Below are positions 10,713 to 64,000 of a DNA stretch of 64,000 nucleotides, piece by piece. The first letter of the stretch is position 1. Each line of letters starts with the position of its first letter. The notes below the pieces were generated by a model that was given only the letters and a program-made list of their open reading frames with translations, did no database searches and had not been told where the DNA came from. The position numbers and the translations under genes are program-made. The stretch is from Paramecium tetraurelia (taxonomy: Eukaryota > Ciliophora > Oligohymenophorea > Peniculida > Parameciidae). The DNA lies in contig NW_001799067.1 of the NCBI RefSeq assembly GCF_000165425.1, positions 192,867-256,866 of the forward strand. Reading direction: 5' to 3'.

Positions 10713-12192
10713 ATGTATTTTAATACAAATATAACTTATTCTGAATATGTAAATGTGCAAAGTTTTAAGAGTAAACATTATAATAAGATACTCCATTAAA
10801 TTATGCTGATTTGAAAGAAAAATTAATTGATAATAAGAGGATATTCTTCTAAGAAAATCAAATATCAGAGTTGTCTCTTCATAATATTATACTCTCAAAA
10901 GTAGAGTTTGCTAGAAGTATATAAAGAAAATGATAATGTAAACTTTCTAGTTGCCTCTAGTATTATAAAAGATCATATGTCTAAAAATCATAGCCTATGG
11001 TAAAATCTTATTTTGATTCTTAATCATACTATACATAAAAGTGTTGGAACTATGTTTCTAATTTAAAATCAATATCTATTCCTTGTATTAGGAACAGAAA
11101 TAACTGTTTAAGTTGCATTCGGACTTGATGAGAATATAAAATAGACAACTTTAAATTTTGTAATAGAATTATTCCTAAATTCAAACTGAATATCTTCTGA
11201 ATAAATTTTGATTTCTTATCAATTATTTTATTTAATAATATTAACTCTTATATGAAGGGGGCTCAACTTTCACTTCTAAAAATATACAATAGCCATCTCC
11301 AAAATATAAATGGTATTCGTTTTAAGTATTATCTAGTTTCTTCAAATACTACTATTCATATAATATCACCAGAGCCAATATTTTAATCTATAAGCGCTCT
11401 AATTTTGAAAGGAGAATTTACTAATCAATTAGCGCATTGGCTTTGAATAAATTATTTTAAAAAAGAGGTAGTTTCATTTTAGAAAACTAATAGGCTGAAA
11501 GATTGATAAATAAAGGTATAATGAATTTCATTTAGGGGTATGAATATGCACATGGCTTTATCTCCTCATATATACGTGTATTAAGATTATAATTAGAATT
11601 AAAATAAATACGCAATTGAATGTTACGATTAAGCTATTTCCATTATTCCTAGTTATGATAGCGCATGGAATAATAAGGGTAACTAATGTGACATATTACT
11701 ATTGTTNNNNNNNNNNNNNNNNNNNNNNNNNNNNNNNNNNNNNNNNNNNNNNNNNNNNNNNNNNNNNNNNNNNNNNNNNNNNNNNNNNNNNNNNNNNNNN
11801 NNNNNNNNNNNNNNNNNNNNNNNNNNNNNNNNNNNNNNNNNNNNNNNNNNNNNNNNACAAAGCTATTTCCATTAATCCTAAATTTGATATAGCATGGAGT
11901 AATAAAGGTAAATTATTTTATAATTAGGTTTTGCATAAATTCTTCGTAACAACAATTGCTTTTACATAATTTAAAGAAATATCAGGAAGCTGTCGATTGC
12001 TATGATAAAGCTCTGTCTATTTGTATTAATCCTCTTCGTCTAAAAAGAAAAGGTACACCTTTATAAATTAATATAGCTGATTCACTATTTGAGTTGCAGT
12101 AGAAAGAAAAAGCTAAAAAGTTTTATTAGTATGCATTAAACAAAGGATCAAATGAGACGGATTATATACTAAGATAACTAGCCAAATTATGA
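10713..12192 (+). CDS. Tetratricopeptide-repeat protein, interrupted by an assembly gap
   Basis: The C-terminal part has clear TPR units: YAIECYDQAISIIPSYDSAW before the gap, AISINPKFDIAWSNKG after it, then KKYQEAVDCYDKALSI. Introns at 11908-11927 (20 nt) and 12053-12076 (24 nt) fit, though the frame between them is not fully resolved. The end is LNKGSNETDYILRQLAKL with TGA 12190-12192. Upstream of about 11600 the coding signal shifts frame repeatedly and ATG 10713 is only a candidate start. TPRs mediate protein-protein contacts, so the specific role is unknown. The 150 Ns probably hide more repeats. Confidence 0.65.
11707..11856. other. Assembly gap of 150 Ns
   Basis: A block of 150 Ns lies inside a TPR-coding repeat region, where near-identical repeat units commonly defeat assembly. 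The true length of the missing sequence is unknown. Confidence 0.99.
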
Positions 12193-13600: not shown

Positions 13601-15728
13601 TCAATGTAAATTGGTACATCCCTCCTTAATAGCTTTAAGTTCAATTTCAGTTGCAGTTGTTTGGGAAATAGTCGATTTCCAATTAGTAGTCAAAACCTGA
13701 GAAGCAAACTATATAAGTAATGCATCTGAGATAATGCAACCATGACTGCAATTGTCAATTCCCTAGAAAAATATAATAAATTACAGTTTATCCATACTTA
13801 CAAGAACATGTTAGACCCAAATAGCCGGATTCAGTGAATTACTTCTATTACTATTCATCTGTTGAATCATAAATTGATGAGACAGCATCGCCACTATATT
13901 ATGAACAATATTCAACTAATTTGGTTGGAATATTAGTTTATCCATTCTTGTGTTCATAAATCCACTTGATGGCTGGTGTCATAGCTGATGAAGCTAGAAC
14001 AGTTGCATCGCCATATGCTTTTTAAATATGATCAGGTAAATAGAAATCATCAGAAGAATCAACAATAGGTTAAGGTTGTTTATCATATTCGAATTGGGCT
14101 GGAGTCAATTGATTAGCTGCATAAATAACTACCATGGGGACTCCTGGATGTTCAAGATTATCAGCCTTGACTCTTTTAGTCTCTTAAACGTACTCTAATA
14201 ATTGTTAAAGAGCATCAGAATTAATATTCTCTGAAAGTGCCTCAATCATAGATTCTTCAGTCGAATAATACAGTTTATCCACAACCCTTAAGAAGTGTTC
14301 ACTCATATCACTCATTAATAATTAACAATGATTTGATCTTTCTTCAAAATCAGCACCACAAATTTAATCAGGTTCAGGGAACCAATTCAAAGGGTTAGGT
14401 CTGGAAGGTCTTTTGCCAGTAGATAGAAATTCTTTATCCCATTTAATTCTATCTAATATTTGTTGCATCCAAGTCTCTGTTCTAAATCTAAAATAAGTAT
14501 CTTTAGGATAGAGATCAACAACACTAGATGAAGTACGTGACATCTTTCTTTGAGCATACCAATTAATGCCAGCATCAATAGATAGAACTTTAAACATGTA
14601 ACTATCATCTCCTCCTACTTATGGCTTGAATGTTTTTGTAGCCCCTAAGAGTGGGCCAGCCATAGTAACAATACCAGCCACTTTTTACTTTTCTTCTGGT
14701 GTCATATTATATATTGCTTCCGTGGCATGCAAAGATCCTAAGGAATGTCCGAATATATATGTAGTTTTGCCAGTTAACTTATAGAAGGTTTCAATTGATT
14801 TCTTGATGTATTTTTGAGATTCTGAAGCTACAATTGATTTTCTAAAATCATAAGGTGCAGCTTGCATAGTCAAACCTGGTATATATCCCATATTTTTTAA
14901 AGTGTCAGAGAATGTATGATATCCCTTAGTGTCACACATAGATGATTTGATGATTGAATCAGTAGAAAGTTCTTAGATAGCTGTGGTTCCACATTCTGCA
15001 TCAGCACTCAAAGGAGTGTTTCCATACCAAGTTATAGATATACCTGGTGCAGCTGAATATCTCTCCTTTGGATCCTTCTTTGATTTATCATAATATAGTT
15101 CAATAAAATCACCAAAACATTTACTTTTCTTATTTGTCATTGCAATTGTAAATGGACTATTTATTGATCCCATCCATAATCTATATTCTTCATTCGGTTT
15201 CTTCAACCAAAACTTAGATGCGCTGCATGTTTACCAACCACAATTTTCGAAGATATCTGGTCTTTTTGCCTACAATGTTTCACAATCAATTTTAACCTGT
15301 ATACATATGGAATTTTATTTTTACTTGTAAAATTGTTGCTATAATACCAGGTACCAAGATAACAGGTTGACATGGACCTGCAATGAATTCGTTAATATAG
15401 TCTTACAAGCTCAATTGACTTGGATCTTTTCCATTTGTACATACATTTGCAGTACTTTCTAAAAGTTCCTTCATTTTTTCTTTTCTCTATCTCTCTTACT
15501 CTTAATAAATTTGTTCGTGGTATTATCTAAAGTGCTCACTTATATTACATACTCAAATTCTGACTAAGGCTTCCAATCTGGATCAGATCTCCTAATTCTA
15601 TTGATTTTTCCCTCGACAGATACAATAAATGTATCATCTTCAAACCAAGAATTTCTATCGGTGTTATCCAAATACGGTGCAATTGAAATTATTCCTATTG
15701 TCACTATAGCAAGCAATTATTTAATCAT
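13601..15728 (-). CDS. Secreted LCAT/phospholipase A-type acyltransferase
   Basis: Lecithin:cholesterol acyltransferase family, alpha/beta-hydrolase fold, acting on phospholipid acyl chains. An N-terminal signal peptide (KQLLAIVTIGIISIAP) is followed by PVILVPGI, the usual first strand, then MGYIPGLTMQAAPYDFRKS and the nucleophile elbow IFGHSLGSLHA (GHSLG), with later family blocks AGIVTMAGPLLGATK and YGDATVLASS. Introns include 15297-15324 (28 nt, GT...CAG). A frame break coincides with a six-T run at 15474-15479, where one more base would rejoin the frames. The predicted length of about 640 aa suits a ciliate LCAT. Ser is evident; Asp and His were not assigned. Confidence 0.88.
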
Positions 15729-41429: not shown

Positions 41430-42619
41430 ATGTTTAAGGTTCTTATTGCACTTAAATCCTAATAATAATTCAAGTGTTCAGTGACAATGGCAGGGAAGAC
41501 CAAAGTGATAACCCTACCATAATCTGAAGGATTAACATTTAATGTAGAGTATTATAATTAATATATATAATAAGCTAATTAAGCGCAATCTAGTTAAAAT
41601 ACAATGATGAAATCTTTCGAATTCAAATGAATGAGGATATCACTGAGACAACTGGTGAGTATAAATTTACAAATGTTAGCGGCTAATACTTTATTGTGTT
41701 GATATAGGATGTTGAGAAACCATTTAAATTAAACATAAAATAAAATGCCTAAACATCAGAATCGCCTCTGAAGAAAAATGATACAGAAAGGAGTCTGACT
41801 GCGAGCAATAAGAAAATAAGCTTTAAGACTCCGACAAATAGATAGAAATCTGAATCTAATTAAAAATTGATACAATCCTTTGTTTTAGGAGATAATCTTA
41901 TGGAATAATTGAAATAGGAGAATAAAGAACTCAAATAAAGAATAATTGAGCTTGAAAATTAAGTGATGACGTTGTAAGAAAAAAATGAATAAAGAAGTGA
42001 TAAGATTGATTAATCCAAATAGGAAGTTTCAGCAAATGATATAAGAAATGATTTTTAAAATCTGTTAAGGTTACAGTAAAGATAAGCTCAAGAGAACAAA
42101 TAATTACTTAAGCAATTGATGGATTTAGATACTAATTATTAAGAATTGCTAGAAAAAAAATCGTTGGTTGATTAGGAAGTAACAAAATTAAAATAAACTA
42201 TCAGCTAATTTGATTGTCAAATAACTTAATTAAAAAGCAGATTAACATAATTTGAAATAGATGGGTTAAGTCAAAACATTTAATTAAATTTATAAATTGC
42301 ATAACCAATAGAGAATGATGAAATAGTGGACAACTTAATTAAACTCATATTAAAAATGAGAGCAACTGGATCCCAATACATTCCTATTAAGGAAGACAAA
42401 TTGGACTCCAAATTAGCATAGATTATTGCTAAAGATCATACTTAACAATACCAATTTATTCGATTGAAATAAGGTTTATATTTGATAGGAGAGGATTAAT
42501 ATTAATTATTTTTGTAAGATAATAAGATTATGATTACAACTGAAGATGGCGTGTCATAACTTTAAGATTTTATTAAGAGTCGAAAAAGAGTAAAATCAAT
42601 TAATGTTCGTAAAGCTTGA
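41430..42619 (+). CDS. Coiled-coil protein with N-terminal beta-rich head
   Basis: Starts MFKVLIALKSQQQFKCSVTM. A beta-rich head (DEIFRIQMNEDITETTGEYK; GQYFIVLIQDVEKPFKLNIK) is followed by a Ser/Thr/Lys linker, about 170 aa of coiled coil (QENKELKQRIIELENQVMTL; QLLKQLMDLDTNYQELLEKK), and a small C-terminal globular module (QFIRLKQGLYLIGEDQYQLF; ending VKSINVRKA). One intron or frame adjustment is needed near 41540-41600. No family recognised. Confidence 0.65.
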
Positions 42620-42724
42620 GATTATATTTGTTAGTATATATATTATAATTGAAAAGACATTAATCATTCAGTATTAGTTCAGAATTTCATTTTTTTATTT
42701 ATCTTTTAGTTAACTTTATTGAAG

Positions 42725-43339
42725 ATGCAAAATATAACAGGATCTGGAGTGATGGTCTTTATCAAACACAAAGAAGATACCTTAGTGTTATTATTGCAGA
42801 ACATTAGAAAGAGATAATTGGTTTTGATGGAACCTGGAGGGAATCAAGAAGTAGGTCTTTCGTCAATGAGTAATGCATTGAAGGAATTGTATGAAGAAAC
42901 ATTCGCAGGATTATCAAAGTCAGATTTAGATGAAGAACATAAAGTACTTGTGAATTACTAATACTTGTGCTATGCTGTCTACATTAAAATAGATGATTTA
43001 AATTTTTTTTAAGAAGTTATGGGAATGAACTAGAAAATATTGTAAATGGCAAATAGTCGATCATTGCATTCATTTAATGAGTGCAAAGGATTTAATATAG
43101 CCAATTTAAAAGACTTGATGAACGTGGATTTTCAGTATTATGAAAAAGACAATAATAAAATACCGCTTCATATTCGAACCCAAGCATCATTGAAGGAATT
43201 TCAAGCTAAAAAAATAATTCAAAAGGATTTATCAATATAATTGCCGTTGTTTTAATGTTCCTTAGATAAAATTAGAATAAAGAATCCAAAATCCCCTTTA
43301 CACGTGCTCAATAATTAATATACATATGTTATACATTGA
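42725..43339 (+). CDS. Nudix-like protein
   Basis: An intact frame of 204 codons. A strand (GSGVMVFIKHKEDTLVLLLQ) leads to EPGGNQEVGLSSMSNALKEL followed by YEET, which resembles a Nudix box (G...RE-x-x-EE) but lacks the glutamate expected eight residues before the KEL and the final Gly. Nudix enzymes hydrolyse nucleoside-diphosphate-linked compounds; the incomplete box leaves activity doubtful. The C-terminal half (HSFNECKGFNIANLKDLMNV; IRTQASLKEFQAKK) is unassigned. Confidence 0.55.
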
Positions 43340-43363
43340 AATATTATTAATATAATTAAAATA

Positions 43364-43705
43364 ATGAAAGTAGCAAAGAATTAAAAGCTAGTGTTAAATA
43401 ATAGGTTTTTGAATTACAAAGCCAAAGAGGATTTGATAAACTTCTTAGAGCAACCCTAGAAAGATGTTGAAATGAGTTAAGCAATTAGAATTAAAAAATC
43501 AACTATGATGAAAAAGATTATCGAAATATTTGAGAAGAATACAGGGATCTTGGAAGTAGAAGCAGAAGATGCCTTGATATCCAGATTGATTTCATCCTAT
43601 GAAGTATATAAGCGAAAGGGTATTCAACACTTTAGTGAGATATCTATTCGAAAGGAAGAAACAAAAGCAATTTTAAGAATAAAAGTTGTATTAAACCAAT
43701 AATGA
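43364..43705 (+). CDS. Small hypothetical protein
   Basis: An intact 113-codon frame, 24 bp downstream of the Nudix-like gene. Basic and helical (MMKKIIEIFEKNTGILEVEA; ISSYEVYKRKGIQHFSEISI), closing with a strand-like segment (AILRIKVVLNQQ) just before TGA. It is convergent with the guanylyl cyclase, whose stop lies only 20 bp away. Function unknown. Confidence 0.6.
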
Positions 43706-43724: not shown

Positions 43725-46700
43725 TCATTCTTCAATTTATACTCTGTCTATATAATAGCCCTAAATAATCCTATTACGATGTTCAATCTAATTAGCAAAC
43801 ACATAGCTAAATTCTCCAGTGTAAGTGGCATCTAAGAATTTCATAGTATCTTCTGAAACCATGATTCTACCAATTTATGAATTCTATTCCATTTTCTTTG
43901 CTAATGCAACATCCGACCCATAAATATCATATCTCACAATGTCTGTTCCTACTATTCCTCCAATGATATTTCCTGTATGTATTCCAATCCGCATATTGAT
44001 ATCAGGGTATTGAATGTTTTTCTTGAGTAAATTAACAATATCTAGCAATTGAAATCCCAAATTGACGACATTATAAGTTTCTTCCTCTCTGATTCCATTA
44101 TTAGCATCCAAAACTCCCATAACAACATAGCTATCTCCAATTGAATACAATTTATAAACATTGTTCTCAGTGCAAGCCACATCAAATTTATTAAAAAGTG
44201 AACTCAACATTTACAATACTTATTGAGCATCTACACTAGTAGAATATTTTGTAAAGCCAGCTATATCAGCATAGAGGATGGTTGCATTTTCAAAAACGTC
44301 AGGCAGAGTATCTTGTTCTTTAAAATATTATTATAAAATATGTGAAGGCAAGAGATGACTGATAATTTTATTTTATTCTTATTATTGTTACAAGAGTTGA
44401 TCATGAATATTATAATTCTAATAAAGCAAATCCTCATTTTGATTCCTCTAAACAAGAATAAATACCTCTATAGTAAGAATAAATATGATAGTTTCATTCC
44501 ACTAATTAGAAAAAGCTAGTATGAATATGACATTGATATATTTCAAAATGAATAGCAGTTTCCTATGGCGAGAAGTGAAATAAGGTAAGGCTCGTAAAAA
44601 GTATCCCAAACATAAAGTATAAGCTAGGATTAGAGTAATGTATGATCTTTCGATTGGATCATTAATAATGATTGTTATGATGGTGAATAAGATGCAAATG
44701 AAATACCCTATGATCATACTTATTTAGAAGATATATTTGTAGGCATCTCTTAGACAGAAAGGAACAACTATACAGCTCATTAGATAGAATGCAATCTTCA
44801 ATCCTTCGATAGTGAGATTGACTCCCAAATATTGCTGATATTCCATTAAAGCAAATAAAATTGGCAATTAAAAGATCATCAAATAGATAAAGAGAATAAG
44901 ACAATACTAAATCGTATCTTTAAACAATTTATGATTATAAATCCGAATCATTTCTTTATACTTGAATTATCTGAAATAAACTAAGTTTAATATATATTTA
45001 TTTACCTCTTCTAGCTTGATTAGTACCAAAGTCACATTTCACTCGTATCAATTCTTACATAATATCAGTTTCAATCTTCTCTTGATTACCAATAAGTTAT
45101 TATAATTTTGGAATTTCAATCTTTTCTTCTTATTACAAAGTAGAATCAAATAGATGATTGTTATTATTATTTTATAAGGATTTCTAGCTTTTAACATTAT
45201 TCTGGGGGCTCTTTGGCAATAAATCATCAATGTTTTTTTAGGAATCAGCTACTTTCAGATTATCAAATAGATCGCCAAATTGATCACCTAAGGGATCATC
45301 TTTCTTTTATTATTATTATTGTTATTATTATTGCTATTATTGTTATTACTATTAAACTTAATCATGTGATGACATCATTTAAGGATTCACTTCTTTAAAT
45401 CTAGTGACTCTACTCTTTCTATGCATAGTAATACGTCTATTTGATATATCCTCTACAATTCAATAATAAATAATTACATATTAACTTATTTGCTGTGATT
45501 ACATCTTAGATTACTTTACCAAACTATTCAACTGGTAATTAATAAACAGATTTATTTCTCGACATTGACGATTTCCTTGCTATATCGAATTAGAAACCAG
45601 CAGGATTGACAGCATTTGTCATAAGATCATTGATGAGAGGCTTATCATTTTAATCAAGTTTCTTAAATTAAATTGAACTGACTAATTTAATGATGGGTGA
45701 CTTGTCAACCTTTGTTGCAAAAGTACTTTTCTTATTAATGACAAGTGAATAGAGCACATAGATATTTTTGATATTGATTTCCTTAACTTAAAATTAATAC
45801 TTCATTTGTCTGACTCTGATATAGGCAGTTTCAGTCAACGAAATCCTTCCTGGTTCACAGACTGTGCAGGCTCTACTGGTTGTGTTAACAGTGTCTCCTA
45901 TCAATGAGAATTACGGTTTATGTTAGCCAATGACTCCAGCCATCACATTCCCATAATTAATCCCAATCTTTATAACTATCTGTTTATCTTAATATTTTAA
46001 ATTATTAGTTGATTCCATCATGGCTATTGCACATTCAATCATTTTCTATGTTGAGTTTTTTGATTGCTTATCAATTATATCATAGTCTTTTAATCCAGAT
46101 GCACAAACATAAATCTATCCTACTGTCTCGATCTTTTAGATGTTATACTGATTGCATATTGTATCAAAGGTCCTATAAATAGAATCCAGAAAACTTATGA
46201 TTGACACTTTCTCAGATTCAATAATGTCATCGAAGTCGCAGATCTCACAAAAGAGGATTGTGACTGGCCCTTAATCTTCCTATATTTATATATATCCTCT
46301 AGCCATTCGCTCCTTAATAAATCTGGGCATCAATATTCCCAAAGCGTCATTCAATTTCTTCTGTTCCTTCTCCAATTGCTCTTGCAATAGAAAGTTTTGT
46401 CTCCTCAAATACTCATTCACATAGCATAAGTAATATCCACTTACAATTGATAAACTACATATGATTATCAAAGCCAAAACAAACATGATCTATTTCTATG
46501 GGAAGTATTGATATTTAGGTATTATGAATTTCAATACCACTCCCAAGCTAATTAAACTCATAAGGATTATCGTACCTTTAAATTTCAAACTCTGCTTTAT
46601 TGAGTAATTCAGCAGGATTATCATAAATATTGACGTAAATATAATTTAATTCAATATGTAATCCTAATCCAATAAGAATGTTGTTATAAATTAAAATAAA

Positions 46701-49700
46701 AACCTACTTAAGATGCTGATTAATTGTAAATTTTATTAGATTTTATGAGGAGTGATTTCCAAGTATTACAGTATATAAATTGTAATACTGTAGAACAGTT
46801 ACACCCCCCATAAGATGTAGATTGCTATATTCTTTTCAATATAGTTAACTTAGATCAATAGATTAACGAAGATTGTAGCTTCAAAGATGATATACAAGAT
46901 TGAATTCTGACTCATGGATTCTTGGTATCGAATTTCAAATTCCTTTTGATTGAAGGTCAAGTTTTTCTTCAATTCTATTTATTCATCATTATTAATATTG
47001 TTATTCAAGGCCTTATAGATTGAATCGTCCATCTAATTGTTATCTGCCAAAATAGATTTGATGAATTTCTTCCTCTATTAGATAGACAACTGCAAACTTT
47101 GCTTAGTGGTTCTCTACTTCTTTGTCTACTCAATACATTTAAAATTTTATTCATCTGTTATCACAGTATCTTGGAACATCTCCAAATTGTACAATTATAG
47201 TATAGAAGTGACTGCAAATTTAAATACAAAGGCAAATATGTAAACGAAGATTAAACTTCTAATTATATATCCAGGACTATAAAACAAATCTGAGTAAGTT
47301 ACTTTATAATCACTATAATCAGGTATAGTTAGGAATGTCACCAAAGCTACAATGAATACGCTTAAAAATAACAAACCCAAAAGTTGTTTATGTTGTTGCT
47401 AGAATATTTAGAAATACAATTATATTTTAACTATTAATTCTAGAGTAATTATAAAAGCAAATTGGGATATTGGCAAATAATTGGAATCTCCATATAAGTA
47501 TTTTGTGGCATACAAAGGAATGATCACAATTGTTGCATCAATCACTCCAACAAAGAATATTTTAATTAATGAATCCTTGTTAAACAGAGATTTGACTAAG
47601 CATCTTTAAGGTATCAACCCTTTGTAATAGACATCTGAAGTCTTGAATCGTTTATTGTGAGATATCAACTGAATCATCACTGTAAAGGTTTGACTTAATA
47701 GAAGGAGGACGTTACAACTTTAAGTTAAAAACTACCCCTAGTTGATGAGATTGATTAAGACAAATAGAATCATCTCGTAAAGCCAAAAGTAAAGAATCTG
47801 TTAGGCCAGCAAAGACGAACTTATACACTGAATTATTAGGATTGATTCTGCACATCTTAAAGAATTGACTAAATAGCAAGGTTTGGATTGAGTGTAGCAT
47901 TTCGGGTTGATGTCAATTGATATTTAACTCATCTGATAAACCCTTTGAGTGTTAGCACAACTGCCGATGTATCCAATTTACATATTGAGTTTTTTGGCAA
48001 TCTTAAATAATTTAACCTTAGAGATCTCCATACTATCATACAAGGCCAACCCTCTGCTAAACCAAACGATTATGGCAAAATGATTTAAGAGATACTCATC
48101 TTTGATTATAGTTAACAAGGCTTCACAACTCAGGAGAATGTACTTCTTTTCAAAGTCTTGTGCTTCAAATATTCTAATGTTTAATTTCACATTTACCTCT
48201 GTTACTTAATCAGATTTGAACAGGCACTCTAAATAGCGAATTTCAAGGTTCTCTCATCTCCGCAATTAAATTGATTTAAATCGTTTTCATTCTCTATGAA
48301 TTTTGCATCAAACAAAAACCTTAGAACTACGAATTGATTTTCAGCAGAAACCAACCATGTATTTAACTAAATATTGATTTTAAATACATTAGCTTAAGAG
48401 AATGCATCAATGGTCAGAAGAGCACTTTGATCTATCTTTGCATGAGTTCCTATAATCATGAGCAATTCGGCCTAGGATTCTAATTGTAAATACAACAATT
48501 CAAGCTAATCTTCGTCTGCTGTGTATGAATTCATGATGTTCATTTTGTTTAATAGGAATTACTTAGCTTCACTCTTTTTGAGTTGCTTCTTAAAATACAG
48601 AGTTGGCTATTGACCCTATTTCAACATATAATACAAGGTTGAATTAGTTTCTAACACATTGATATTCATGTTAGTGTTTTCATACATTTGAGAAGTTTCA
48701 ATTTTTACATAAAGCAGTGCACCTTCATCCTCATTGAACTCTTCTGGATCTTTTAGGAGTACTGAATAGACTCCGATTCTATTTTTTGTTTGTTTATTTT
48801 CACTCAGGATCTTATATTATTTCAATTTGCCTTATATTTCAATGATTTTGAGTTGACTTTTGAGAATTATGTCATAAATTTAACGCTCAGCTTCAATACT
48901 ACATTTAAGTTTGTATTCTAAGAGATTGCAGAACTCAATTAAAATATAATCTTATGGGTTCTTACAATATGTTTCTATTGTTTTTTTTTATTCGTTGTAT
49001 TTATTCTCAATCTCACATAACAACAAGAGTGCAACAACTTTCTCGTGATATTAATTATCGAAGTCATCAAACAGTTGAGTTATAAATTATTATTCATTCA
49101 ATTATTGCTTTTATAATTGATTAATAGACGAACTCTAGTCACTTCCACTCTTGACAACCTTTGTTCTAAATGATATGGTTTTGCCTAAGGAATTCTTTAG
49201 TTTCTTCTATTGAGATGCATCAATGGTTTTTTTTGAAAGGGAAAATTATAAGTTTGAGCTGATCCCATAATTTTATCTCTCCTCTTAATTATGAGGAGAA
49301 TAAGGATGCGAGTTAATTAATTCGCTGTAATCCTTTTTGTCCTCATCAAATATGTCATTCTCTCTGCCTGTATCTAATAGGGTCTTGTAGTAATTATCCC
49401 CCAATTATATTTGATTGTTATTCATTACTGTCACCAATTATTTATATTTGAATGTGTATTGCTTGTCATCAATATAAATAGACTGGATTTTCCTCTTCCT
49501 TTGGAAATACTATTGATTCAATTCCAAACACACCAAATTTACTTTCGAGCATTTCCAATACTTGGAGAAATTATATTAATGTTTACATTAGTTTATTACA
49601 TCATAACCGAAAAGTCTTTGATGTCATCGTATTTTGATAATTTATTCTAAGAATAGATTTCAGTCATATTCTTTACTCTATTAAATTCAATCCAAATATG

Positions 49701-51010
49701 TTTATCATCTTAGACGACTTAAAATTTTACATAATTATTTACTATCCTTCCCTTAATTATTTCCTTATTCAATGGCATTAATTGGCTTAACCTTCTTTTG
49801 AATGCTCGGCTGTTTGATGTAATTAAAAATCTAAACAAATTCTTTATAGAATATGGAATATAATGGAATTAACATAGAATTGAAACATAAGTGAATCCCA
49901 TAACTCGATTTATAAATCAGATTACCAAGCTAAAATTACCTAATCACATACCAAACTAATAACATATCCAAGAACAATCATGCCAATAAAAAATAATGAC
50001 TTCTATCGTTTGTGTTTGATTGGCTTATAAATGCGTAAACAATTATTGCCAGCCACTAATACTATTCCCAATGCCCAATCTGTATTTAAAAGCTTCTCTC
50101 CACTAAAAATAATGTTATCCTGATTGAATTTAAACACTTTTGGATCATTTTTTAATTTTATCATTCCCATCAAACTGGATTTCTTGCCAAAAGAGTAGGA
50201 ATACTAAATTTGCCCATTTAATGTTAACTTGAATTCAACTAACAACCCTTTTGTGTCTGATTTTGGTTAGACTATGATAAATATGTTACTTACTGAAAGT
50301 GGATTAACAAGGAATGGTTATTTTAGGTGTTGAAATACCAAATTCATTTTAATCTATTTATACAACTGGATGACTTGATTCTAAAAGCAATACATCTGCA
50401 GGGCATTCATGTGTTTTTTATAGGATAACAATGTCACCAACTTTAATCTATTCTCTTAATACTTATTTTTGTGGATAGAAATAAGTATTTATATCCTCGG
50501 ATGAATCTGATGCCAAAGGTTCTTTGGAATGAATAAAGTTCTCCAATATACTATATCTCTATTCATTCAATTAGGATTCGACTATTCTAAAATTACGAAA
50601 TTTAAGAAAGCATTTTGTCACATAGAGAGTGTAATCTAAAAGCAAAACTATGCTTTAAAATAAAACAACCAAATTGCTTTTGAAATATTCATTTCTAATT
50701 ACCTAGCTGCATCATCCTAAAGAACCCAACTAATAATGATGTAGACCATAATCATCAGGATTTCAAATCTCCATAGAAACGATAAGACTTCTAATATGTG
50801 TTATTTAAAAGTAAATGATTGAACTTTGTTGCCAATATAAGATTTGCCATAACCAGTAAGCGACTTGACTTCTCCATTCACAAGTTCAATCTTCACTAAT
50901 CAATAAGTAAACTTACCTTCTTCAAGTTATTCTCTGTCTTCTATTGGATGAGTTTCTAGACCTTTGATGATTATTTCATGTACAGGTACATTATCAAAGA
51001 ATTTAGCCAT
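43725..51010 (-). CDS. Guanylyl cyclase with N-terminal P4-ATPase-like domain
   Basis: A giant (about 2,400 aa) membrane protein of the ciliate/apicomplexan type. The N-terminal half follows P4-ATPases (VGDIVILQKTHECPADVLLL; IIFSGEKLLNTDWALGIVL; a run of late TM spans). The expected DKTGT and GDGxND motifs are not seen; the hinge reads IGYIGSCANTQ, so it is probably a pseudo-ATPase. Two cyclase domains follow, each after a TM cluster. The first (about 46300-45700: ILFCEICDF, IETVGQIYVCASGL, FSLIGDTVNTTSR) lacks both metal aspartates but has Glu and Ser at base-selecting positions and the N...R pair. The second (about 44330-43760: ILYADIAGFTKYS, YSIGDSYVVMG) has both aspartates. The order is thus inverted relative to animal adenylyl cyclases. 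Several introns (for example 44981-45005) and some frame breaks. Confidence 0.9.
45306..45353. repeat. Trinucleotide (ATT/AAT) microsatellite inside the cyclase gene
   Basis: A run of imperfect ATT triplets lies in the cyclase gene between the two catalytic domains. Read on the minus strand it gives an Asn/Ser-type low-complexity linker. Its length is likely variable. Confidence 0.8.
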
Positions 51011-51049
51011 CTCATAATTTATTACAGAAAAAAAATAAATTTTTAAATC

Positions 51050-56115: not shown

Positions 56116-58475
56116 TCAAAATCTTGATTGATACAGTAAACTAACAGCCGTAGTAGCTTATTTTGATAGATGAGCCATAGATGATGGTAAGAGTGGTTAG
56201 ATTCGTTGTCTCTTCATTTCTAACATGGCAGATGATTCATTCTTAAATTAATCCAAGACACAATTTCTATCTCCTTATAGTAACTGATCGTGTTGCATTA
56301 ACCAATAAGTGTAAATGTTGGGATCTTTAAGAGTGGCACTAAAATAATAATAAGTTAAATGTTATACTCCTTCCATTTTTCAGTGTCTCTTGTCAATGTT
56401 ATTTCAATCTCATAGACATCTCCTAATTGTTTCATCAATTCTACTAATTTCTCATCTATTGTTTTGAAATTAATGCAATCACACAATAACATCATTGTAC
56501 AAGACAGCCGTTTCTTTCTGTAGAGCCAAAAGTTGCCCATCTGAAACTCTTTATCTAGTTTTGCTTTCTGCCAGAGTTCAAAACTATTCAGATGACTCTT
56601 AATGATCAAATTTTATTCATTCAACAGTGCATTCTTTAAGACTTACTCACCTATGAATTGTTGGATATTGTATTCAAAAATATGCAATAACTCAGTCAAA
56701 AGAGCAATTCCATATTTAAATTCTATTTCACCATCAGGAAAATCAATGTGTTATTGATTCAATACATAATTGAGATAGTTTCTTGTTTTCTCATAATCAA
56801 TTATTAATAAATTATAACTTAACAAATTGATCAAAATAGAAATCACTTTTAATTTAACAGTTAAACCTTTTTTAGGTAAACTCTCCGATTCCTCTTCAAT
56901 TTTAACTATATTTATAATCTTAAATAAATGTTAAAACCATGTATGGCTTTTCGACCCAAATAATTTAATTGAGATTTCTGATTTACTCAAAAAATCAACA
57001 TCAATCCTTTTGTTTGAATGACAATCAAAAACAACATGCAATTCCACTTTCTCTTAAGACCCTTCCAATTGAAATTGAGCAGAAAAAGTACACAAAGACT
57101 GATTTTTCTTCCCCTTAACCTTCCCTATTTCTTAAAACAAATGGTATGCTTTCAAAAACTCTTTGGCAGTCTCCTTTCTAAAACTACCTCTATTCTTCAT
57201 GAATAATACTGCATCCTCAACTTGATGTTCAGGCACTCCCACTGAAATAGCTATATTCTTAGCATGCAAAGACATATGCCCTTTTTGAATGCCTTCCACA
57301 GTCAATGCTCTCAAAGCTGCAAAGTTTTAGGCCAATCCAACACATGCCATAATCTCAGCTAACCTTTAGGAATCAGGATACTCTAGAATCTATAAGACTG
57401 CTTAATACAAAGGGTTTTAAGACATAACTCCTCCCTAAGTGCCAACAGATATTGGAATAGTTAGTTCTCCTATAAACTCATTTCCCTCAACCCAGTATTT
57501 CGATAATGGCTTATACTTACCATTTAAACAAGCATATCCATGCAATGACGCATTCACTGCTCTACCATCTTAGCCAGTTGCATTACAAACTGCCTCAATT
57601 CCATTTAAAATCCCTTTATTATGAGTAACTGCTCTAAAGTAGTCTAATTCAGCAAATTTATATGCATTCAAAATCATTTAGGCAACTTATTGCCCTGTAT
57701 AATTCTTATAATTCATTTTTTCAATGTTTAATCTAAATTATGAAGTGACTTTTCTGTTCAAACATAAATTTGTCAAAATCTTGATCCCCACTTGATGTCC
57801 TGTAATTTCTTCAATCAAAGGAGCCAAATGTTCCAATACTGTATTAACTATGTTGGCTCCCATACTATCGCAAACATTTATAAAAATATCTACAGAAGCT
57901 TGGCCTTCTCCCAATTATCTTAGTTTAACATCCTCAATTCCACCTCCTCTTTTTACCATATTTGCACATGCTTAATTGCCTCTGTTTATTATTGATACTT
58001 TATTTGAATCGATCAGACATTCGGCTTTTGAATAATTTTCAACATTTAGCAATTATATTTAACCCATCATAACTGGTCTAGTTGAATAAGTTTCAAATCC
58101 ATTTCCACAGTCTGCAATAGTTTTGGCTGCTGCACTTGCTGCTGCTATAACAGAGGGTTCTTCAATAGCCATTGGAATTATATAATATTGACCATTTATG
58201 AGAAAATTTAATCCCAATCCTAGAGGCATTCCAATTTTCCCTATACAATTTTCAACCATTAAATTTGCATTTTACAATGACAAACCCCCATCTTTGAAAT
58301 GTTCAACATTTACATTCTAAATTTTGTTCAATTAATCTAATCTTTATTGCAATGTCTTTTTGTAAAAGCCTGCCCACAATTATGCATACTCTAATTTTTA
58401 ATCTTTATCATCAATTTCTTAAACAATCTATTATCTAATTTAACCAATTCTCTATTGAGCTGCTCTATTATCCAT
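56116..58475 (-). CDS. Class II HMG-CoA reductase with long C-terminal extension
   Basis: Mevalonate-pathway enzyme interconverting HMG-CoA and mevalonate. About 440 N-terminal residues align throughout with the soluble bacterial class II enzyme: [31 protein letters not shown] (catalytic Glu), [34 protein letters not shown] (catalytic Lys), [15 protein letters not shown] (catalytic Asp), [20 protein letters not shown] and [12 protein letters not shown] (catalytic His). There is no class I membrane anchor. The same frame continues about 330 aa past the usual end ([38 protein letters not shown]) and, after a 29-nt intron (56339-56367), ends [10 protein letters not shown]. The extension has no recognised domain. 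Confidence 0.93.
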
Positions 58476-58510: not shown

Positions 58511-61107
58511 TCACAATCGATCAAAATTAAAAGTATTGTACATTCTTTTTCCCTAAGGAATCATCTATATTGCTGCATCCTTTACAAAACTTGAAAACGT
58601 GTATTTCTTTAATTATTCATAAATATTCCAAAATTTATTGCTTCTTTTTCTTTAACTTTTGATCCATAATTTAATTTGAGCTTCAATTTAATATTATGGC
58701 ATGTAATACTATGACTTTAATGAAATTGAATCAATATTTAGAGAAGATTTCAAACTCTTTTACAGTGTTGTCTCAATCTCTTCTATCATGTTGTATTGTT
58801 TAGGAATTAGAATTTCATCATTTGACAATACTATCCTACGTTATGATTATTTAGATTCCTGGACAATTGGTATTACCTTGAGATAAGACAATTCTAATTA
58901 ATGGATAAATTACTTTTCAGTCCTTTCCCTTAAAGATTCTAACTTATTCTTCTCTAGTTTTATCTTAAACCGTGTTAATCTGGAATTATATCTTTTTCAC
59001 TTTAGATATACTATGATGATGGAAATTGTTATTCAGAAACTACAGATTTATCATTTTGTAATTCATGATGAGATGTTAAATCTTCATTTAATTGATTCTC
59101 TTCTTAATATAGCTTCAATGATTATTCTATCATTTGATTTTAAGCTAAAGAATTGTGTTTTGATTATCTCCTGGATCTGTATCTGCTTAAGTTGAACTCC
59201 TCATTAAATGCCTCCTTTTTTAATATGCGTTCTAAATCAGGTTTAAATTGAATTAATGGACAATCGATTTCCTGATGAACATATCTGTTACAGAAACTGC
59301 ATTTGTGATCAAATAACACGAAGTTCTGCTTATAAATCATCTTGTCTTTTATGTGATGAAAGATCTCCAAATCCTTTTGATTCTGCCTGATGATATCTAA
59401 GAATTTCTTTCTGCTTATCCTATAAAGCTAACTAGCTCCTTGACTGACTGCTGTTTCTTTGGGAACAAATCCAGTGAAAAAGGAATAGTAACCTAAATAT
59501 TATGAGGTTTTTAGATTCCTCAATTTGAGTTCGGTCTACATTTCTATTTGATTTACATCTCCTTATTAAATAAAATAGCTAAATTAACGTGAATAATACA
59601 GATTATCTTCATGAACGTCTCCCTATTTATATACGATATCTCCAGGCAGAAAGGAAATCAACTCAAGGTTTTTAGCCACTTGTTGTTAAGTATATTTCGA
59701 GAAATGATTGATTATTAACTTCATTTTTTTGAGAACTCTAGTTTAAATATCATTATTTAAATCCTTCTACAAGTTATTTGGCAATAAACCAATGATATTG
59801 TCTATTTCGCTTTGATTTTCTACATTATCCGAAGTCGAATGGATTCTTATGTAATTCCTGATCCTGCCTTGTATGCTCTCATCCACTTGATTCTTATGCA
59901 TATATTGAGTTATTTAGATCAAATTCTTTCTGATTTATTTAATAATTGTTACTTATATGTTTATTTGGCATCATACAGATTTTTTAAAATAATTCCTATT
60001 GAACTCATAGTATAAGCAAAAGCATAACTAGAGAAAAACATGATAACTGATGAAATAAGCATCTCAACTTAATTCGAAGCAGATATATCACCATAACCAA
60101 CTGTTGTCATTGTCATAGTTGCCCAATAAAATGAGGCATTGTATTGGTGCCAAGATGAGTATTCTGTTAAGTTATGTTCTAGCAACCAAGATGTCCCTAA
60201 ATACTTGGTTTTGTCTCCAGTATAATGCCATACACAGGCAATGATATGAGCAAAATAGTATATTTAAATGATTAACTAAATTAGATCTAAAATGGCATTC
60301 TAACCTCCTTTCATATAGAAGTATTGAAAGTATTCAGCAAGATATCTTTCGATGTTTTGATATATCAATATAATTTCTAGTATTATTGTAATTTCCAAAA
60401 TTTCAGCGAATATCAAATCGTGTTTTAGGCAAAACCAAATAAATAGTCTCAGGAAATCCACAAATGCATTTGATTTCAAGTACTCTTTTATTATTGTCAC
60501 TCTGTTGGTAATTAAAATAGCAGAGATAAATATTCCCCTGTTGAATTGAACCAAGAAATCGATAATTTGAAAAATTAAGATGATTTATTAAATAATAGAT
60601 ATGATATCGTTTTGATAATTGTTAAATGACCCTATAAAGGGAGTTAACCATAGCATTAGAAGGTTGTTCAGAAACCCAAAAATATCCCAAATGATAATTG
60701 CGTTAGTGGAAGGTAAAAATATCGGAATCCACGATAAAGTGTCTTGAACTATCACTAATCATAAATTTATCTTACCATTTTCTTTTTTCTGGGAAGCTGA
60801 AGATTTTTCGAATAGTTAATCAGTGATCTTTATTTTCTATTAATTTCTTAAGATATATGAGTTTGTAAAGATATTGTTAATGAATCGATGAACGTGCAAC
60901 TACAATTTAAAATTCTGAATAAAATTTGATTATTTTTATGGTTAAAGAGTCTTTAGAGTTCTTAGTGGATGTTGTCCTTTCCTCCTAAATTCAGACTTCA
61001 ATAACTACAATAATTACTTTACTTTCGAAACGTGACATGTTCATCTCAAAGCTTTTATTTTCATTCATTTCCCTCAAACTTTCCTACTAAATTTCATCTT
61101 CCAACAT
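58511..61107 (-). CDS. Second K+ channel with cyclic-nucleotide-binding-like domain
   Basis: EAG/CNG-like channel of about 830 aa, unrelated in position to the one at 27-29 kb. TM spans lead to VEMLISSVIMFFSSYAFAYT (S6) after the pore ATMTTVGYGDISAS near 60085-60125 (GYG filter). The S4 region is not rich in Arg. The CNBD-like module shows ISFLPGDIVYKQGDVHEDNL and YYSFFTGFVPKETAVS, followed by a Cys/His cluster (KCSFCNRYVHQEIDC) of a kind common in Paramecium channels. A long Gln/Asn/Ser tail ends NTFNFDRL at TGA 58511-58513. One frame change occurs in the tail near 58770-58810. Confidence 0.85.
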
Positions 61108-61197
61108 TATCTAGGATGAGGATTCCTATTTCGAAGTGAGTTATAAAGTTAGAGAGGATGGGCCAATTCTTTACAATCTTAAATGTTATTCCATTTA

Positions 61198-63145
61198 TCA
61201 AATTTTAATTCTTTAAAATTATACAGTACTTTTGTATGTAAAGAATTTTATCGCTTTAATATTAGATGATAGATAAGTTAAATATAATAATATAAAATCA
61301 TTGTTCATCTATTAAATTTTATGTGAATTTAAGTGGTACATCCAACATTGACGAATCAAAAATTAATTCAAATTTGTTTTCGAATGAGTCATATATGAAT
61401 TTTTTTTAAGTATAAAATTAAGGAGGAGGGTAAAGAGGGTCTAACACTAGTTTGAAGAGATCTTCAATTAATTAAGGTATCAACTTCGTTAAAAGAGGAC
61501 CTGAACATTCCAAACAAGGATTAGTGTTGGTTTCGATCAGCCACACTTTAAATTTGTCATCAATCATAAAGTCTAACCCAAACAATTCAAAACTGTTTTC
61601 TTTTCGTTTAGGATCCAACTTTCCATACGTGGCTTTAAATTGGTGCAATGCTATATTCCTCATTTGATTATAAATAGTTTGATAAAAGTCGATGGGCAAG
61701 AAGTTATTAAACTCTTCAAATGAGACCTTGTTTCCTTTTTCAAATCGACCATAATCCTCCGAGTACTTTTAGACAGCATCATTAGTTAGATGAATCAACT
61801 TATTTGATAAATTCATCAAACTGAACTCCTAACTGGAAGTTCTGATATACCCATCCTTGTACCAATAGCCTTTGTGTTACCCATTGACAGAAGTAAACAA
61901 GATATAACACCTAATATCAAACTTCCTCTGATTATATAATAAGGGGTTTTCAATATATTTTTAAACTATAAAGGTTTTCTAAGCCCCATTTTTATGATGG
62001 TGGATGCTCCTCAAATACTGTTATACTTCATTGATCGTCTAAAAGATATGAATACCATGACCTCTATTAGTAAGTTCGGCTGGTTTAACTATCCAAATAG
62101 ATTAATTTTGATTTTATTGAACAAAGTTTTGGAGATCCTCTTTGTTTTTGATATGATATGTTTAAGGTAAGAAATCAAAAACATTCAATCCCTGCTGTTC
62201 ATAATACTTTTTCATATTGTAAAAGAGATTCTTCTTGCTACCTAAATGAGTATTATTTTAAATGTGATTATGCAATTTAGTATTAGCATTCACTTCAAAA
62301 AGTCTTAAGGTTTAAGAAACCTTCTATGCTTGATCGTAGGATATGATTTTGGAATTCTTCCCTGCTTTTTTTCTCAACTTTTATATTTACAGACCCAATT
62401 GATTTGGCAGTAAGTTTTAATATTAAATATCTTAGATGACTATGTTTTACTCATCATTATTATATTGCTATTAAAGGATCTCTTGATTTGATTCAGGAAT
62501 CGAATCAATATACGAGTTATTCCTCAATTATTGCCAGAGGAAGTTCACTTATTCTTTTTCCTTATCAACAATAGACCACCACCATCTTCTCTTTAAAATC
62601 CATTATACTAATTGCCCATTATTGCCCTTCCCTATATATGCCTTATAGGAGTTGATGGTAGGTTGAACATATAAATTATTAGATAGATTGATTGCATTGT
62701 AATAGGTTCTCAAATTGGCATAGTTCAGTTGAAATTAGGGATCCTAAGAATACCTTTCGTCTTCAAAATAAATTCCATTAAATTTTTATTTTACAATTTT
62801 CTTCTTCAAGGCTTTCAAAGGAAAGATGTCTGGTTGATATGAAATTTTCGGTTTTATAATCTTTTTCGGCATCTGATGCAAGGTGTTGCCAACTAGCACA
62901 CACCTTTCATCTTATTCCTTTTGTATTTTTTTTTCCTTGATTTTAAAATAAATTAAGGGAGGAAGCAGAGATTCACTCGATGAGTCAGATATTAATTCAG
63001 TTTTATTAGAATTCTTAGTGCTTGAGACTACTAATCCATAACAGGAAGGAGGATATTCAAATTCAAACTTAGGCAATTTCATTTCTCTAGGTCCAATAAA
63101 ATAATGATCTGAACTAGGACTGTGAGACGTAAAACTTTTTTTCAT
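61198..63145 (-). CDS. Tubulin-tyrosine-ligase-like (TTLL) enzyme
   Basis: TTLLs add glutamate or glycine chains to tubulin tails in cilia and other stable microtubules. One continuous frame of about 640 codons. The N-terminus is Ser-rich (MKKSFTSHSPSSDHYFIGPR). ATP-grasp blocks follow: QSIWIVKPAELTNRGHGI, FIVQKYIENPLL, KFDIRCYILFTS, LIHLTNDAVQKYSEDYG, and SFELFGLDFMIDDKFKVWLI with ETNTNPCLE (Mg-binding E...N). Which amino acid it ligates cannot be told. The last 30 codons up to TGA 61198-61200 may be 3' read-on if a stop was lost to a base error. An upstream in-frame ATG at 63202 is possible but less likely. Confidence 0.93.
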
Positions 63146-63444
63146 TGTTTTTTTAAAGTTAAAAAATAATTCTAAATAATATATTAATCTTATAATGGGC
63201 AACTATTATTTAAATTGATTATCTCTGAATAATATCAATGTTTCATTTTATTTACAATATAACACCTATTAATTTAAACTCCATTACCGAAATATATATA
63301 TTATTTCTAGAATTAGAAATTTACAGAAACAAAATTTAATATTTTACTAATTCTTAAGATTATGTAGATTCAGAGAAAATTCTAGAATTGAATTAAAATG
63401 CAAACACAAGCGAAAAGAACATGATAATAAAAAATAATATCTAA

Positions 63445-64000
63445 ATGGCCAAACCCTAAGGAGCTGGATCTATTTGGAACCCCAACAGTTGGCATTGGGA
63501 AGAAAAGAATTATACCACTATTGCAAGACAATTAATCGAATAGAAAATTAAGGCAATCAAAGTTGAATCTGGAGACATCATCTTGACCAATATAGAACTC
63601 AAGTCCATCAGTGGAGACGTACTTGTTCGTTATGACTTTAGGCTTAAGTCAACATTCGAAAAGGAAAGTAAGTACTAGTCTATGATTTCGATATTGAAGT
63701 GGAATGGAGAGGTAATTTGATTAAACTAAGTTTAAAGGCTCAAATGAAAGTGATGAAGCAGAAGGAACTTATAAGATTAAAGATCTAAATTCCTTAGATA
63801 ATGATTTTGAATTGATTCATATCAATAGCAGATCCAAAACTAAAATCTCAGACAAATGCAAGGACATGGTTAAGAGAGACATGCACATGAAGTTAAAAGA
63901 GTCTTTCAAAACTTTGATGTAAGAAATAGGTCAATTTGAATCTGACCCTGAAAAATTGTATAAATTTATTATAATATTTGTAGAAAGAAAGATCAAGAAG
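63445..64000 (+). CDS. AHA1: AHA1-type Hsp90 co-chaperone, 5' part
   Basis: Activates the Hsp90 ATPase. The N-terminal AHA1 domain is recognisable: SIWNPNSWHWEEKNYTTIAR, LIEQKIKAIKVESGDIILTN, GDVLVRYDFRLKS, and a core strand YDFDIEVEWRGNLIK, then KDMVKRDMHMKLKESFKTL. Frame changes near 63670 and 63725 each fit a single missing base. A 26-nt GTATAA...GTAG intron lies at about 63958-63983. The C-terminal AHSA1 domain lies beyond the window. Start ATG 63445 (MAKPQGAGSIWNP) fits homologues. Confidence 0.8.

Follow-up and report, generated by a model that had tools for sequence, protein, structure and literature searches.

A ciliate guanylyl cyclase with a degenerate P4-ATPase half: a likely pseudo-pump within a family of graded ATPase loss

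Must the flippase half of an ATPase-cyclase fusion pump lipid to switch on the synthesis of cyclic GMP (cGMP)? The question concerns alveolates, parasites included, and it is raised by a gene on the reverse strand of a 64,000-nucleotide stretch of Paramecium tetraurelia DNA (the window; G000:C109:192867-256866, in a surveyed genome of 69 Mb and 231 contigs). An earlier, sequence-only reading had described this gene as a guanylyl cyclase fused to a P4-ATPase-like half that seemed catalytically dead. Our comparisons, which cover this one genome and the sequences of the Protein Data Bank, lead us to read the gene as a ciliate membrane guanylyl cyclase of the alveolate ATPase-guanylyl cyclase (ATPase-GC) type, the P4 half of which would be a pseudo-pump acting on the cyclase without ATP-driven transport. 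We put the probability of this reading at about 0.72. The window gene belongs to a known protein type, as its architecture has already been published, and so has one case of a degenerate ATPase half, in Plasmodium GCbeta. Taken by itself it is mostly ordinary; the interesting part is a family-wide, graded loss of the ATPase beside a preserved cyclase site.

Catalytic residues of the two halves

The Pfam check proposed by the sequence-only reading succeeded for both cyclase domains and failed for the ATPase half, in which nothing exceeds the cut-off (best match PF00122, E 0.071). Homology of this half emerges from other comparisons. A phmmer search with it returns seven distinct P4-ATPase sequences at E values up to 1, namely yeast DNF1 (5.9e-7) and six others. 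Moreover, hhalign against a profile of the paralogues C215 and C230 yields 97.7% for the window gene with its closest duplicate, and 99.5% when C134 and C155 are added to the pair, over about 750 columns. The two reference paralogues have unmistakable P4 halves, C215 matching DNF1 at 3.8e-59.

The alignment of the DKTGT and GDGxND positions had been set beforehand as a check, and both positions are replaced relative to the paralogues: the first reads ELNQQ and the second GSCANT. A search of the gene region in all three frames of the sense strand gave no DKTGT- or GDGxND-like string, as the sequence-only reading had held; such a search could miss a motif interrupted by an intron, which alignment with the duplicate makes unlikely. 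We also considered an alignment of DKTGT on an upstream DDKHIW, which would retain the aspartate, and rejected it because both the pattern of the flanks and the clade of paralogues place ELNQQ opposite xNPxx and DKTGT. On alignment evidence, the ATPase half is a true flippase homologue without the catalytic set. It lacks the residues that form or resolve an aspartyl phosphate, and therefore no lipid pumping by a P-type cycle is expected; the loss of the catalytic motifs gives good support to the earlier claim that this half does not pump lipid. The roles of the adenylyl cyclase residues discussed below, the N-domain Phe and the spelling TGDK belong in part to general background. The roles of DGET, DKTG, TGDN and GDGxND follow PMC6592433 and that of PISL follows PMC7858053.

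The cyclase half gives two PF00211 (Guanylate_cyc) matches, at 2.1e-40 for the first domain and 3.7e-40 for the second. Among solved structures, the best matches are to mammalian adenylyl cyclases: the first domain is nearest to type 5 (1.7e-28), the second to type 8 (1.2e-42). In the first domain, Glu and Ser align with the Lys and Asp of the adenylyl cyclase C2 domain, the transition-state Asn and Arg are present, and the metal positions are occupied by Glu and Gln; the second domain has both metal aspartates. Since the base and transition-state domain comes first and the metal-binding domain second, the order is inverted relative to adenylyl cyclase. Residue alignment thus agrees with the sequence-only reading on a C2-like domain without metal aspartates, on the C1-like domain with both that follows it, and on Glu and Ser at base-selecting positions fitting GTP. 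These residues suggest a cyclase of guanylyl rather than adenylyl type. Guanylyl cyclases generally have Glu and either Cys or Ser at the base positions, where adenylyl cyclases have Lys and Asp. A Glu/Ala pair there has also been taken as indicative of GTP (PMC6592433). The active site looks intact: the C2-like and C1-like domains would form one GTP-selective site making cGMP, the C-terminal domain binding the metals and the N-terminal domain contributing the base and transition-state residues.

Selection and descent of the ATPase half

Between the window gene and its closest duplicate (L029 on contig C65), the ATPase half shows a non-synonymous divergence (dN) of 0.045 and a synonymous divergence (dS) of 0.986 over 1208 codons, a dN/dS of 0.046, and the cyclase domains show a dN/dS of 0.017; these per-pair ratios omit codons beside gaps or in windows of less than 40% identity, which can lower them. 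We also divided the window pair, and this pair only, into segments with no columns filtered and with bootstrap intervals. All seven segments lie far under 1; the ratios include 0.063 for M1-A-M4, 0.029 for the P/N segment (95% interval 0.019-0.041), 0.059 for M5-M10, 0.019 for the N-terminal cyclase domain and 0.015 for the C-terminal one. The P/N segment is the most constrained of the ATPase half, its interval overlapping that of M5-M10. Four other duplicate pairs with finite dS have ATPase-half ratios of 0.046-0.086, and the P/N ratio is the lowest in three of them (L011/L012, L015/L016 and L026/L028). No ratio is given for the five of ten duplicate pairs in which dS is saturated. In the window pair, dS falls to 0.56 and 0.75 in the cyclase domains, below the 0.9-1.26 of the other segments; gene conversion or a constraint on codons might explain this.

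Against this duplicate, the dead half is under strong purifying selection, the pattern of a conserved pseudo-pump rather than of decay. Such selection, estimated from coding sequence, shows that the half does something and does not say what. The description 'regulatory or structural sensor' in the sequence-only reading is accordingly consistent with the data as far as some function goes, the kind of function lying beyond what selection tells.

A maximum-likelihood tree of the cyclase domains of 32 genes (LG+G4; rooted arbitrarily on a five-gene group; C114 left out and C162 placed weakly, at 72) joins the window gene and its C65 copy (100) to a group in which the DKTGT site reads E/D/N-NPxx (ultrafast bootstrap, UFBoot, 96). 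A second motif-erased group, of six genes, is separate in the tree (100). The dead state is common to a supported paralogue clade (UFBoot 96) and has therefore been kept through further duplications. Across eight aligned dead-clade genes, 65 of 712 window positions in the compared region are invariant. The densest invariant run is NRIGVYSVLLKDPEEFNEDEGALLY (11 of 25 positions in these eight genes), a candidate for the present role of the dead domain.

In the mechanism that we propose, the ATPase half, including the former P/N domain, is kept by purifying selection, as dN/dS against one duplicate shows. The pseudo-pump may act as a conformational or binding module, through lipid, a partner subunit such as CDC50 or a contact of the P/N domain, and would position, target or gate the cyclase without ATP-driven transport. 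Two accounts of Plasmodium GCbeta favour this reading: the P. yoelii enzyme reportedly needs no ATPase domain to make cGMP, and in P. falciparum the ATPase half is degenerate (PMC6592433).

Several observations weigh against this proposal. The P/N segment is the least constrained one in the motif-erased pair L014/L018 (0.11), and it has the largest dN among the three ATPase segments in L013/L017 and L024/L027, two pairs with saturated dS. For the window pair dS is close to 1, and the estimator used, NG86, is a simple one. The alignment of the ELNQQ region joins sequences that, the duplicate apart, are only about 12-28% identical over the P/N region. Moreover, the phosphorylation Asp of Plasmodium falciparum GCalpha could not be replaced in three transfections, from which the authors infer that ATPase activity is needed upstream of cGMP synthesis (PMC7858053). 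With that Asp judged essential, members of the ATPase-GC type do not as a rule carry a dead half.

The alternative that fares best takes the ATPase half as a mere membrane anchor or targeting device, selection keeping its fold and trafficking with no effect on cyclase activity. The lost catalytic motifs agree with it, as does the report that the cyclase of P. yoelii GCbeta makes cGMP independently of the ATPase domain (PMC6592433), and so do the three other pairs in which P/N shows the weakest constraint within the ATPase half, whether measured by ratio or by dN. Of a pure anchor, however, one would not expect the P/N segment of the window pair to be more constrained than the two membrane-helix segments, even with intervals that touch or overlap. 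We regard an anchor without regulatory effect as unlikely, if well worth keeping in mind, and favour the pseudo-pump.

The ATPase-cyclase family in the genome

To place the window gene among its relatives, the 105 PF00211 matches in the genome were grouped by eye into 35 genes with strong matches, weaker single matches being left out. Where the DNA was read, an ATPase half was seen in 34 of the 35, those of C162 and C114 having been identified visually and from their alignment with the other genes, with no separate significance test. The exception is a gene on C166 (L042; G000:C166:422986-425686), with a strong cyclase match and no ATPase half in the stretch read.

The catalytic set is degraded to different degrees in these 34 genes. 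DKTGT is intact in 15, reads DKTCT in 2 and is lost in 17, two of the latter (C109b and C2) retaining the Asp alone. An exact GDGxND occurs in five of 33 genes (C192 is masked there): C215, C187, C216, C22 and C230. By coordinates, the same five are the only ones of the 34 to have a match to PF16212, the P4 C-terminal family, which has 52 matches in the genome. The actuator motif was read in 24 of the 34 (21 + 3), its local alignment being uncertain where the motif is erased. Its catalytic Glu survives in one gene, C67, which combines NGET with DKTCT and GDEAND, and the full flippase set is present in none of the 24. The five paralogues with both DKTGT and GDGxND (L020, L022, L030-L032, L055-L057) read DGKS at the actuator, or NGKS in C187, with Lys for Glu. 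Judged by these residues, they might be phosphorylated and yet unable to remove the phosphate. Architecture alone is thus no proof of flipping.

The cyclase site presents a uniform picture in the 32 genes aligned. The base-selecting Glu is found in 32 and the Ser in 31, the transition-state Asn in 32 and the Arg in 31, and the metal Asp pair of the C-terminal domain in 32; the lone Ser and Arg exceptions both come from C193, the model of which is probably mis-spliced at these sites. At the second metal position of the N-terminal domain, Asp never occurs (Lys in 25, Tyr in 5, and Gln in 2, the window gene and its duplicate). The first position reads Asp in 23, Tyr in 5 and Glu in 4, the window gene among the last. 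Overall, the first cyclase domain has Asp at neither metal position in 9 of the 32. In L048 (G000:C114:146300-149140), the N-terminal cyclase domain shifts frame without an evident intron, either through an assembly error or in a decaying copy. The CDC50 family (PF03381) has 24 matches in the genome.

As read from its motifs, the dead pump is one of several states found in a series of 34 genes and not an isolated oddity. With graded loss among the 34 paralogues and a cyclase site that looks intact in the 32 aligned, allowing for the poor model of C193, the family offers a natural set of cases in which lipid transport could be told apart from control of the cyclase.

A broader proposal would have the whole ATPase-cyclase family freed from lipid pumping, with some lineages losing phosphorylation altogether and the dead P domain now a conserved regulatory domain, in which Glu at the phospho-Asp site possibly mimics the phosphorylated state. 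Such a Glu is found in five of the eight aligned members of the window clade, the window gene included, and also in a partly masked ninth, C192. Were the proposal true, the mimic might make the cyclase independent of ATP-driven gating; in this full form we consider it doubtful. Less probable again is a hetero-oligomer in which the window protein would borrow the ATPase cycle of a paralogue with preserved P-domain motifs. Five paralogues do retain DKTGT and GDGxND, but the same five lack the Glu of DGET, and we hold this alternative to be improbable.

Gene model, neighbours and known systems

Gene models were built with a codon-usage Viterbi procedure allowing GT..AG introns of 18-36 nucleotides, and that of the window gene was corrected against L029. 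The outer coordinates of the sequence-only reading proved exact (Table 1). Ten introns of 21-26 nucleotides are present, a size suggestive of Paramecium, and the spliced gene contains no internal stop under NCBI code 6, in which TAA and TAG encode Gln; the 2357-residue model of the duplicate is likewise free of internal stops. A first splice model had merged the gene with its upstream neighbour through a false intron over the TGA of the latter, and cutting at 51045 restored the start at 51010. An unspliced reading of 49951-49720 was rejected, since conservation in the duplicate favours the spliced frame. By hydropathy alone, the protein shows 20 peaks (9 + 6 + 5), where about 22 (10 + 6 + 6) are expected for the type.

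Table 1. Features of the window gene, in window coordinates (TM, transmembrane helix)
Feature	Coordinates	Strand	Remarks
Whole gene	43725..51010	-	ATG at 51010, TGA 43727-43725; 11 exons, 2349 amino acids, code 6
P4-ATPase-like half, residues 1-1218	47171..51010	-	end boundary approximate; DNF1 5.9e-7; hhalign 97.7-99.6% to paralogues
NEFG, aligned near A-domain DGET	50337..50348	-	motif lost; alignment uncertain at this point
PLYS, at the place of PISL in M4	49855..49866	-	
ELNQQ, replacing DKTGT (phosphorylation site)	49510..49524	-	aligned to paralogues
SAEN, replacing TGDK	48337..48348	-	alignment
GSCANT, replacing GDGxND	47948..47965	-	alignment
Single open exon, 898 codons: P domain end, M5-M10, six TM, N-terminal cyclase domain	45478..48173	-	
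N-terminal cyclase domain, C2-like	45734..46399	-	Glu/Gln at metal positions; base residues Glu (KIETVG) and Ser (QFSLIGD); transition-state Asn and Arg
C-terminal cyclase domain, C1-like	43740..44399	-	both metal Asp (YADIAGF, SIGDSY)
Intron, 21 nucleotides	50896..50916	-	spliced model
Intron, 26 nucleotides	50677..50702	-	spliced model
Intron, 22 nucleotides	50272..50293	-	spliced model; no intron at this place in the duplicate's model
Intron, 22 nucleotides	49930..49951	-	downstream frame is the one conserved in the duplicate
Intron, 25 nucleotides	49718..49742	-	spliced model and duplicate
Intron, 26 nucleotides	49561..49586	-	spliced model and duplicate
Intron, 21 nucleotides	48367..48387	-	in frame if retained; inferred from a 28-nucleotide intron there in the duplicate
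Intron, 23 nucleotides	48174..48196	-	spliced model
Intron, 25 nucleotides	45453..45477	-	spliced model
Intron, 25 nucleotides	44981..45005	-	spliced model

The long exon at 48173-45478 has no TGA in its own frame, against 13-35 in the five other frames. It is open across the joint, and the ATPase and cyclase halves are therefore one coding unit at the DNA level. As far as DNA can show, both halves belong to one gene. Two separate genes or a decaying pseudogene might be suspected from the many small exons in three frames and from the lack of a Pfam match above cut-off in the ATPase half; with this exon spanning the joint and dN/dS far under 1 in each of the seven segments, we consider either very improbable. 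That the ATPase half still pumps through some unusual chemistry has conservation alone in its favour and is scarcely credible when the acceptor Asp, TGDK, GDGxND and the actuator motif have each been replaced.

Elsewhere in the window, a predicted gene on the forward strand (41487-43705) lies tail to tail with the cyclase gene, the end of the one about 20 nucleotides from the stop of the other. On the reverse strand lie a predicted protein with an HMG-CoA reductase domain (56116-58475; PF00368, 1.7e-102), the model of which may include another gene in its 3' part, and an LCAT-like lipid acyltransferase (13601-15728; PF02450, 1.3e-27). An ion-channel-like frame on the same strand carries the potassium-channel selectivity-filter motif TVGYGD at about 60104, within a model (58511-63608) that may merge several genes. 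A run of 150 N occupies 11707-11856.

The ATPase-cyclase architecture, its inversion and the GTP-type residues have been described for ciliates and apicomplexans (PMC5746546, PMC6592433), and the sequence-only reading was right to call the arrangement known. The ATPase-guanylyl cyclases of Paramecium and Tetrahymena share with the window gene the N-terminal P4-like half, two six-TM sets, the inverted C2-like/C1-like order and guanylyl-type residues (PMC5746546, PMC9608856, PMC3143110). The window paralogue differs in lacking the ATPase motifs and both metal Asp of the N-terminal domain, the published Paramecium enzyme being likened to it by description and not by motifs. Whereas one survey of fused genes gives two for Tetrahymena (PMC3143110), we count 34 ATPase-cyclase genes here. 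A review of Paramecium names one guanylyl cyclase with its duplicate, besides many annotated cyclases of lower similarity, with no motif survey in the excerpt (PMC9608856), and our searches of the open-licence PMC literature gave no paper that surveys the ATPase motifs across the ciliate family.

Stand-alone P4-ATPases such as yeast DNF1 and DRS2 and human ATP8A1 are homologous to the ATPase half of the window gene. They have a complete catalytic set and no cyclase, whereas the window gene has the cyclase and has lost the set. Plasmodium GCalpha and the Toxoplasma ATPaseP-GC share its architecture and inverted cyclase domains, the inversion being stated for Toxoplasma (PMC6592433). Unlike the window gene, both retain the phosphorylation motif and DGET, with NGET for DGET and a GDGxND called degenerated in P. 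falciparum GCalpha (PMC6592433). P. falciparum GCbeta combines the architecture of the window gene with an ATPase half that is degenerate too (PMC6592433), a likeness in another phylum that holds by description and not motif by motif.

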